A stretch of 35,498 bases of DNA from an uncultured Treponema sp. (lineage in GTDB: Bacteria; Spirochaetota; Spirochaetia; Treponematales; Treponemataceae): positions 6,931 through 42,428 of the forward strand of contig CAJOEO010000006.1 of the NCBI GenBank assembly GCA_905233535.1, given 5' to 3'. The notes beneath the pieces are model-generated. The model saw nothing but the letters and a program-made list of their open reading frames with translations. It was not told the DNA's origin and ran no database searches. This document shows, piece after piece, positions 4,425 to 9,546 of this stretch; within the stretch, counting starts at the first letter, position 1; every line of letters starts with the position of its first letter. The position numbers and the translations under genes are program-made.

Positions 4425-4430
4425 GAGAGA

Positions 4431-4501
4431 GCGGGAAATGGGAATTGAACCCACGACATCCACCTTGGCAAGGTGGCGCACTACCACTGTGCTATTCCCG
4501 C
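4431..4501 (-). tRNA. tRNA-Gly (GCC)
   Basis: Reverse complement GCGGGAATAGCACAGTGGTAGTGCGCCACCTTGCCAAGGTGGATGTCGTGGGTTCAATTCCCATTTCCCGC folds as a cloverleaf. Confidence 0.95.
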
Positions 4502-4550
4502 AAAATAAAAAATTTGCATCTGTTATAAAATCAAATAAAAACGCAATACA

Positions 4551-4621
4551 GCGGGAAATGGGAATTGAACCCACGACATCCACCTTGGCAAGGTGGCGCA
4601 CTACCACTGTGCTATTCCCGC
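4551..4621 (-). tRNA. tRNA-Gly (GCC), identical second copy
   Basis: Exact repeat of 4431..4501. Confidence 0.95.
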
Positions 4622-4628
4622 GTTTGTT

Positions 4629-4708
4629 TGCGAGAGAAGGGATTTGAACCCTTACGCCGAAGCACTGGAACCTAAATCCAGCGTGTATGCCAGTTTCACC
4701 ACTCTCGC
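4629..4708 (-). tRNA. tRNA-Leu (TAG)
   Basis: GCGAGAGTGGTGAAACTGGCATACACGCTGGATTTAGGTTCCAGTGCTTCGGCGTAAGGGTTCAAATCCCTTCTCTCGCA; class II variable arm. Confidence 0.95.
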
Positions 4709-4735
4709 AATTTTCTTTGTTAAAAGTTTCTTTTT

Positions 4736-4808
4736 GCGTCCGACACGAATCGAACGTGCAACCTACGGATTCGAAGTCCGTTGCTCTATCCAATTGAGCT
4801 ACGAACGC
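4736..4808 (-). tRNA. tRNA-Arg (TCG)
   Basis: GCGTTCGTAGCTCAATTGGATAGAGCAACGGACTTCGAATCCGTAGGTTGCACGTTCGATTCGTGTCGGACGC; anticodon TCG. Confidence 0.94.
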
Positions 4809-4818
4809 AAATAAAAAG

Positions 4819-4892
4819 GGGTGCCTGGAGGGATTTGAACCCTCGACAACCAGATCCACAATCTGGCGCTCTACCCCTGAACTACAGGCACC
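4819..4892 (-). tRNA. tRNA-His (GTG)
   Basis: GGTGCCTGTAGTTCAGGGGTAGAGCGCCAGATTGTGGATCTGGTTGTCGAGGGTTCAAATCCCTCCAGGCACC; anticodon GTG. Confidence 0.95.
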
Positions 4893-5043
4893 GTAAACAT
4901 GAGGAATAATATAGCAAAAATGTTACTTTTTCGTCAAGTGTATTTTTTCTAAAAGTCATTTTTTATTCAATTTTAAGTTAGTCAAGTTTTTGTGGGCAAA
5001 TTCCGAAAATCTAGGGAAGAATTATATCCTTGAGGATTTTTTG

Positions 5044-5877
5044 ATGGACGGCGAGATTGTTGATTTTTCATTTGATGATATGTTGGCTCAACTTGAACCG
5101 CCTGAAGACGTTTTTGAAAACTTAAATGAAAAACGCAACGATGAAAACGATGATTCTGGAGTTTCTTCGAAGAAACAAGAAAGTGAAGAAATTGAGGAGT
5201 CGGTTCAAAATGACGTTGATGTTTTAGAAGACAATTTGGACTTTTCGCAAATTGCTGGTGCGCTAGAAAATCCTGACGACATTTTTGGAAACGATGATTC
5301 TTCCTTAGAAGATGAGAAATTGGACGATTCCCAAGAGGTTGAAAAATCTAAAGATTTTGAAAATCCGAAAGATTTTCAAAATTCAGAAAATCTTTTGGAA
5401 GAATCGGATTCTAAAAAAGAAAAGTTGTCCGAAGATGAACTTCTTATAAAGAAAGAAAAAATCATCGCGGTAATGGAAAGCGAAAGCGATTTGCTCGACA
5501 AAATTCTTGAAGTACAGGGCATTCTTCATTCTTGTGTTCGTGAAAAAAATTGGGATTTGCTAAACGAACGACTAGAAGAATTGCAAAATCTTAGCGACGA
5601 ATTTTCTTCTTTGGAAGAAGAACGCGAAAGTCTTTGCGAGGAAATCGACATTCAGCGAGATTTTGACGTTTCGCCCGTGCTTGTTCGTGTGCGTGGAAAA
5701 TTGCAAAAGTCAAAAATCGAAAATCATGTGCTGAACGAGTACATTTCTACGACGCGGAAATTTTTGCAAGGTGTTTTTGATTCCGTTGTTCCGCAACGGC
5801 GAAATACGCTTTACTCTCGAACTGGAAAAATAATTCGTAATGAGCCGACTGCTGTTGCAGTGGACATTGAACTTTAA
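5044..5877 (+). CDS. FlgN-like flagellar export chaperone with acidic N-terminal extension
   Basis: Immediately upstream of flgK; helical C-terminal region LLDKILEVQGILHSCVREKNWDLLNERLEELQNL...; ATG at 5044 with SD-like ttgagga. Confidence 0.6.
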   Translation: MDGEIVDFSFDDMLAQLEPPEDVFENLNEKRNDENDDSGVSSKKQESEEIEESVQNDVDVLEDNLDFSQIAGALENPDDIFGNDDSSLEDEKLDDSQEVEKSKDFENPKDFQNSENLLEESDSKKEKLSEDELLIKKEKIIAVMESESDLLDKILEVQGILHSCVREKNWDLLNERLEELQNLSDEFSSLEEERESLCEEIDIQRDFDVSPVLVRVRGKLQKSKIENHVLNEYISTTRKFLQGVFDSVVPQRRNTLYSRTGKIIRNEPTAVAVDIEL

Positions 5878-5921: not shown

Positions 5922-7756
5922 ATGGCGAATTCGTTTGCAGGAATTGAACTTGGAAAACGCGCGTTGATGGCGAACACTCAACACATTTCGACGGCAGGTC
6001 ATAATATTTCAAATGCGGACACCGAGGGGTATTCGCGGCAGCGCGTTCAAGTAAAAACGATGGATCCGCTTTATCGTGCGGATTTGTCGCGAGCAGAAAC
6101 GCCTGGTCAAGTTGGACAAGGCACGACGATTGAAAGCGTCAAACGTTTACGCGACGAACTTTTAGTTGGGAAACTCGCGAAAAATACTATACAATGATTG
6201 AAGATATTTACAACGAACCCGAAGAAATCAGCGTTCGTGGAAATATGGACAGATATTGGCAGTCCTGGCAAGAACTTTCGATGTATCCCGAAAGTCAGGC
6301 GGCACGCCAAGCGGTTGTAACTCGCGGAGAATCTCTTGCGGAGTCGATTCAGCAACGATTCAAAAGTATGTCTGGTGTTGGCACACTCATAAACGGCGAC
6401 ATTGAGGCGACTGTTCGGCAGGCGAACAGTTTGACTCGACAAATTGCTTCTATAAACGAGCAAATCGTAAAAAGCGAAGCGGTGGGCGATAATCCAAACG
6501 ACCTTTACGACAGACGCGACCTTTTGGTAGAAAATCTGTCAAAAATCGCAAATATTACGACGGACAATCGCGATAGCGACGAATTTATGGTTCATCTTGA
6601 CGGACATATTTTGGTGCAAGGCAAAGTTTCTCGCGATTTTGGGCTTGAATCTATAACGGACGGCACGGGTTACACTCGCGTAACTTGGGGCGACACTGGC
6701 GAAAAAGCGGAGATTTCTGGCGGTTCGCTTGGCGCACTTCTTGAACTTCGCGACGAGGACGTTCGTTCTGAACTCCAAAGTTTGAATACGATGGCGATGA
6801 ATTTTGCAGACCTCGTGAACGACGTTCACAAAAACGCGGTTGGCGCGAACAATGTTTCTGGAATCGATTTTTTTGTTCAGCAACCGTTTGTAACGAGCGT
6901 TGCGGGAAATTACGACCGCGATGGCGACGGCGTTGACGACCATTCATACATTTTCCGTTTTACAGGTTCGAATTCTCTAAATCCGCAGGAAAAATTGGGT
7001 TTGGAAGGCGAAATGACGATTTCTGCAAAAAGTGGCACGGTGAACGTTCCGTATCACGCAACGGATACAATCGAAGATGTGATTGCGCGAATCAACGATT
7101 CCGATGGAGAAGTGAAGGCGTATCTTGACAGAAACAGCCACCTCGTTTTGAAAGCGACGGCGAGTGCGGATTCTGAAAATCCTGATTTTGTTATTCGGCA
7201 CGTTGAAGATTCTGGAATGTTTTTGACTGGGTATTCTGGAGTTTTGGCTTCGAGTGGCGCGGACGGTGCTTACGATTTTGCGCGCGCGGACGCGGTTCAA
7301 TCTCTTCGCGATTCGGCGGAATTTTCTGTTGCGCCCGTTACAAATCCAGCGGCGTACATCGCTGTAAACGATGACATTCAAAAAGACGTTTTGAGCGTGG
7401 CGGCGGCGTATCCTGTTAGAGGAGGCGCAATGGTGGGCGACGGACGAGCGGCGGTTGAAATCGCTTCGATTCGTAACACTTACGTTATGATTGGAAAAGA
7501 CCGCACGTTTGACGACTATTTTGCGAATTCCGTTACGAACGTCGGTTTGAAAGGTGAGCAGGCGGAGCAGAATTATCTGAGTCAAAACGCGATTATGAAC
7601 GATTTGCGTTCTCTTCGTGATTCCATAAGTGGCGTAAACATCGACGAAGAACTTGCGGACATCATCAAATTTCAGCATGGCTACAACGCGGCGGCAAAAT
7701 TCGTGTCGGTGATGGATTCTCTTCTCGACACGGTTATAAACCGTCTAGGAGTTTAG
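5922..7756 (+). pseudogene. flgK: Flagellar hook-associated protein FlgK split by an internal deletion/frameshift into ORFs 5922..6197 and 6194..7756
   Basis: ORF1 has the basal-body rod N-terminus (HNISNADTEGYSRQRVQ...PGQVGQGTTIESVKRLRDELL); ORF2 continues FlgK through SISGVNIDEELADIIKFQHGYNAAAKFVSVMDSLLDTVINRLGV. Confidence 0.85.
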
Positions 7757-7798: not shown

Positions 7799-9046
7799 AT
7801 GCCAACGAGAATTTCAAGTCAATACAATAATCGCCAAACTCAACGGAACTTGCGCAGGCAAGAAGTTGAAAAGGCAAAAATCGACAGCAAAATCGGTACT
7901 CAGTCAAGGATTACATCTTTGCGCGATGACCCGTTGGCTGCTGGACATTTGGTGAAATTTCAGTCGTTCCTTACGCGCGTGAACAATTTTGAAAAGAACG
8001 CGCAGACTTTGAGCGACAAATTTCAGTACCGTGAAAGTTATATGCAAAATTCTTTGGAAATAATGCAGCGCGTTCGAGAACTTGCTGTTCAAGGTGCGAA
8101 CGGCATTTATTCTCCAGAAGATTTGCGAAATATGGCGGTGGAAGTTGACGAACTTTTGGGCGAACTTTTGCAAAACGCAAACGCCATTGGACCTGACGGA
8201 ACATCCATTTTTTCTGGAACAGCGACGAATATTCGTGCGTTTGACGTTGATTTAGGTGCGGTTCGCGGTTCGACTTCACCTGTGATTGCGAATGTGCGTT
8301 ATAATGGTTCGATTGAACAAAATCTCGTTGAAGTTGACGAAAATAAATTCGTTTCCGTTGACAATGCTGGAAGTCGGACGTTTTGGGCAGAAAATCAGCG
8401 ACTTTTTGGCGGACGAAATGCGAGCGATTGGCAGGCTCAAGAGGATTCCGTGATTAGTGTTGACGGCGTAAAAATCAACGTTGACGCTGGCGACAACGTT
8501 TACGCGCTAATTTCCAAAATCAACGCTAGCGGCGTTTCCGCAAAAGCGAGCATCGACCCGATGTCGCACGGTCTTAATTTTGTAACGACCGATGCGCATC
8601 AACTTTGGCTTGAAGACGTTTCTGGAAGCGCGTTAAACGAACTTGGAATTATCAAAGATTCTAGCCAAAAACCGCCGTATAATTTGGGCGACAGCGTTCG
8701 ACTTTCTGGTGGTTCGCTTTTTGATACGTTGATTGTTCTTCGCGACGCAATGTTTGCGGGCGACAACGAAACGATTGGCGGTCGCGCTCTTCAAGGAATT
8801 GACAGCGGAATTAACAATCTTGTGAATCGTTTGGCAAAAAGCGGTTCTCAATACGAGCGTCTTGAAAAAGACATGATTCGTCAGTCAGCCGTTGCTTTGA
8901 ACGTAAACGAGCAGATTTCGCGCGAGGGCGACCTTGATTTGACAAAAGCGATTACTGACGAAAAAATGCTTGAACAGGCGCAAAACGCCACACTTCACAC
9001 GGCTGGCAAAATGTACTCGTCTTCATTGTTGAATTATATGCGATAA
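7799..9046 (+). CDS. flgL: Flagellar hook-associated protein FlgL
   Basis: RISSQYNNRQTQRNLRRQE...ITSLRDDPLAAGH...[33 protein letters not shown]; flagellin-like termini. Confidence 0.93.
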   Translation: MPTRISSQYNNRQTQRNLRRQEVEKAKIDSKIGTQSRITSLRDDPLAAGHLVKFQSFLTRVNNFEKNAQTLSDKFQYRESYMQNSLEIMQRVRELAVQGANGIYSPEDLRNMAVEVDELLGELLQNANAIGPDGTSIFSGTATNIRAFDVDLGAVRGSTSPVIANVRYNGSIEQNLVEVDENKFVSVDNAGSRTFWAENQRLFGGRNASDWQAQEDSVISVDGVKINVDAGDNVYALISKINASGVSAKASIDPMSHGLNFVTTDAHQLWLEDVSGSALNELGIIKDSSQKPPYNLGDSVRLSGGSLFDTLIVLRDAMFAGDNETIGGRALQGIDSGINNLVNRLAKSGSQYERLEKDMIRQSAVALNVNEQISREGDLDLTKAITDEKMLEQAQNATLHTAGKMYSSSLLNYMR

Positions 9047-9087: not shown

Positions 9088-9546
9088 ATGGAACAGAATA
9101 AGGTAGAAGTAGAAACAAAAACGTTGGGACTAGTTGCGGTCGATTCCGATAAAATCATTGAATTTCCGCGTGGTCTTTTTGGGTTCGAGGAATTTCATCG
9201 TTACGCGCTAATCGAGGCGGAATTCCGCCCGTTTATTTGGATGCAATCGCTTGACGAAAAAAATCTTTCGTTTTTGTTGGTTGACCCGTTTACGATTGTG
9301 GACGGTTATCAAATCGATGTTGATGACAAAATGCTTCTCGAAATTGGCGTGGACAATCCCGCAGATGTTGTGGTTTACGCGATTGTAACCGTGCCGACTG
9401 ACGGCGGACCTGTTACCGCGAATTTGCAAGGACCTGTCGTGATAAATCGAAAAAATCATCACGCTCTTCAAGCGATTCTTTCGGATTCAAAATGGACGAC
9501 GAAACACAATATCGTAAGTGCGCTAAAGTCGCACGCAAAAAACTGA
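9088..9546 (+). CDS. fliW: Flagellar assembly factor FliW
   Basis: IIEFPRGLFGFEEFHRYALIEAEFRPFIWMQSLDEKNLSFLLVDPF is a FliW signature; next to csrA. Confidence 0.96.
   Translation: MEQNKVEVETKTLGLVAVDSDKIIEFPRGLFGFEEFHRYALIEAEFRPFIWMQSLDEKNLSFLLVDPFTIVDGYQIDVDDKMLLEIGVDNPADVVVYAIVTVPTDGGPVTANLQGPVVINRKNHHALQAILSDSKWTTKHNIVSALKSHAKN

Follow-up and report, generated by a model that had tools for sequence, protein, structure and literature searches.

Two overlapping flgK reading frames in a draft Treponema genome as a very probable assembly artefact

In the draft genome of an uncultured Treponema (GenBank assembly GCA_905233535.1), flgK is written as two overlapping open reading frames that together lack 37 bp present in the flgK of its relatives. 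The two-frame gene is in all likelihood an artefact of assembly (probability about 0.92), and the FlgK of the organism itself is very probably complete and ordinary. The stretch of DNA analysed here, referred to as the window, comprises the 35,498 nucleotides at positions 6,931 to 42,428 of contig CAJOEO010000006.1 (C6), and coordinates are those of the window unless a contig is named. The assembly as a whole amounts to 2.21 Mb in 237 contigs, is 92.7% complete, and carries runs of N at scaffold gaps.

The N-terminal piece of flgK, ORF1, lies at 5922–6197 on the plus strand, encodes 91 amino acids and matches the Pfam domain Flg_bb_rod (PF00460). About 82 of its residues are native; these are followed by an out-of-frame tail, ending in ...RLRDELLVGKLAKNTIQ, that runs up to a stop codon at 6195–6197. 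The remainder of the gene is ORF2 (6194–7756, plus strand, 520 amino acids), with Pfam matches to FlgK_D1 (PF22638, 4.8e-62), Flg_bbr_C and Flagellin_IN. The frame of ORF2 is open from immediately past the junction between the two pieces, reading ...SWETREKYYTMIEDIYNEPEEIS on the 5' side of its ATG and SWETREKYYTMIEDIYNEPEE around it, and its start codon overlaps the stop of ORF1 as ATGA at 6194–6197. Both halves are otherwise fully open. The NCBIfam profile for the family, TIGR02492, finds matches in both frames, the ORF2 part scoring 250.6 bits against a cut-off of 170.75, so that FlgK family models are matched over both the N- and the C-terminal parts and the gene belongs to the family. The single frame of about 620 codons typical of the genus is replaced, as assembled, by two frames with a net change of –37 bp, and a search of this assembly revealed no second flgK, intact or otherwise.

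The genes that follow on the plus strand are intact and were assigned from Pfam: a flagellin-family gene, flgL by position, at 7799–9046, and fliW at 9088–9546. Upstream of flgK, the gene at 4990–5877 encodes an acidic protein of 295 amino acids without a Pfam match, whose counterpart in relatives is about 45% identical, and five tRNA genes, two for tRNA-Gly(gcc) and then one each for Leu, Arg and His, are clustered at 4429–4891 on the minus strand.

When the gene is aligned with 24 flgK genes from the genus, 37 bp are missing in one block at about 6165–6168 on the plus strand, probably the site of an unmarked contig join; the same gap is obtained against T. saccharophilum, T. zioleckii and three metagenome-assembled Treponema. 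In those aligned relatives the segment concerned (RLRDELL, 13 residues, W.TR) is invariant in length. With tblastn, residues 1–81 of the nearest relatives map to 5922–6164 and residues 95–623 to 6167–7753, again a net change of –37. A sequence-only reading of the window had proposed that flgK is split by a loss of about 37 bp (1 mod 3) with a –1 frame change, leaving two otherwise open halves that overlap as ATGA; the alignments and tblastn confirm the loss and its effect on the frame, and the ORF coordinates agree with the remainder. It had also called for alignment with the FlgK of close Treponema species, and it is there that the one gap in a length-invariant segment emerges. The FlgK of gut and rumen Treponema, as represented by T. 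saccharophilum DSM 2985 and T. zioleckii kT3, has the same domains as that encoded here and is about 80% identical to it in amino-acid sequence across both halves, and in relatives such as these, as in the window, flgK is followed by flgL- and fliW-type genes. Relatives nevertheless encode FlgK in an uninterrupted frame of about 623 codons, whereas here there are two frames and 37 bp are absent.

A FlgK match was obtained in 186 of the 200 genus genomes searched, this one included; the matches listed cover all or almost all of the protein without a change of frame, this genome alone excepted. When ten of the more weakly matching genomes were re-examined, most of the partial FlgK matches proved to start where a contig itself starts. 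The flgK of one other genome (G190, contig C44, L138 741–3016) has a frame change near residues 372–382, at a different site from that described here. All of 80 related loci have one frame of fixed length through the junction site, extending to a start codon 102–103 codons upstream of the methionine of ORF2, and the junction sequence itself, with up to three mismatches allowed, was found in no other of the 200 genomes. On this comparison the two-ORF flgK is not a stable variant, because no relative has the same break; a stable two-ORF form in relatives, which the sequence-only reading had named as grounds for abandoning its idea of a split gene, was not found in the genus sample.

The flgK loss has counterparts elsewhere in the assembly. 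Open reading frames of relatives, taken for the most part from a complete Treponema genome (about 1.6 Mb of it), with stretches of others added, were used to survey 412 kb of the assembly, of which 109 kb was comparable. Within that comparable sequence there are five frame-changing losses of 37–62 bp that contain no N. Besides the 37 bp missing from flgK, they comprise 46 bp from tyrS on the same contig (C6, about position 2321 of the contig, 4.6 kb before the window), 46 bp near the start of rpoB (C2, about 4635), 62 bp from a DAHP-synthase-type gene (C7, about 19385) and 56 bp from an arginase-type gene (C16, about 15000). The last two names were taken from conserved motifs as read, not from a family search, and for four of the five losses the comparison is with a single reference species. 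At about position 1035 of C5, 39 bp are cleanly missing in frame. In-frame gaps on C3, C8 and C14 were set aside for low identity or unclean nucleotide alignment, and several other apparent splits, lying either antisense to genes or close to a tRNA cluster whose tRNAs are intact, were discounted as shadow matches that were short or of low identity.

Both rpoB and tyrS are essential genes, and the loss of either is lethal. No second copy of either was found in the assembly, and the breaks in them therefore cannot be real. As a control, the same test was applied to 80 loci of other congeners, mostly from metagenome assemblies and with self-matches excluded, and in these approximately 0.90 Mb there were no frame-changing losses of 15–90 bp free of N. 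The difference between the assembly and the control has p = 1.5e-5, or 1.4e-4 if flgK is left out, the test having been prompted by it. Equivalent unmarked losses thus occur elsewhere in this assembly, including in genes that cannot be lost. The other four losses establish that the assembly is faulty, without being direct proof for the flgK site; we infer that the joining error behind the others produced this one too.

Such an error would have joined two contigs inside flgK at about 6165–6168. If the gap between them had been under-estimated to zero or less, the contigs would have been abutted without a mark, and about 37 bp of real flgK sequence would have been dropped with no N left to record it. 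A loss of 37 bp is what gap estimates falling to zero or below predict, and the flgK junction contains no N. An under-sized gap of the marked kind ends immediately before the window begins. It consists of 13 N (C6:6918–6930) and lies inside an aminopeptidase-like gene that is the first of the window and ends at about 188. Relatives have about 43 bp at this point, so that at least one N gap left by the scaffolding of this assembly is about 30 bp too small. Among the sources of incorrect or incomplete protein-coding genes in metagenome assemblies, Chen et al. 2020 (PMC7111523) describe local assembly errors and scaffolding points left uncurated. The present case resembles those in that a draft assembly with N gaps would have had its coding sequences spoiled by errors of joining; it differs in that the joins seem to have been closed without N, with 37–62 bp missing.

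Of the three explanations that the sequence-only reading had left side by side, namely assembly error, a recent mutation and a two-polypeptide FlgK, the losses elsewhere in the assembly strongly favour the first. That the population sampled truly lacks the 37 bp is very unlikely, whether as a motility-altered strain of a gut Treponema in which flgK was newly broken or, with still lower probability, as one with two coupled FlgK pieces. A genuine recent deletion that inactivated flgK, whether throughout the sampled strain or in part of its population, and so cost the cells a proper hook-filament junction, would leave the remainder of both frames and the downstream flagellar genes intact, as is observed. 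The chance of it is nonetheless slight: losses of the same kind in rpoB and tyrS cannot be real, and no relative in the genus sample has the 37-bp loss. Deletion between direct repeats was also considered, but no direct repeat of at least 8 bp spans the flgK junction as it is now written, though the true flanks may differ.

Coupled translation across the ATGA to yield FlgK as two polypeptides is scarcely credible, as is frameshifting to yield it as a single chain, although the overlap at 6194–6197 and the two open halves would suit either. The two-ORF arrangement is shared by no congener, and a frameshifted FlgK would still be some 12 residues short in a part of the protein where the length is constant. 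In 80 of the 80 related loci the codon at 6194 is an internal ATG, and read one base out of step it supplies TGA, the first stop of the shifted frame. The overlap is thus a by-product of the frame change, because relatives have ATG at the same codon and any such frame change gives an overlap here. There is no Shine-Dalgarno site before the ATG of ORF2; the start of flgK itself has GGAGG. Programmed frameshifting and transcriptional slippage were rejected, as the junction region has no X_XXY_YYZ slippery heptamer in frame and its longest homopolymer is a run of five A.

An assembly error is much the most probable origin of the split. The rate at which this assembly has lost sequence, roughly one unmarked loss of 37–62 bp per 20 kb of comparable coding sequence, calls for caution over its other split genes, which, without raw reads, should not be taken for biology. 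For flgK itself, a pseudogene call that is likely to be false is cleared.
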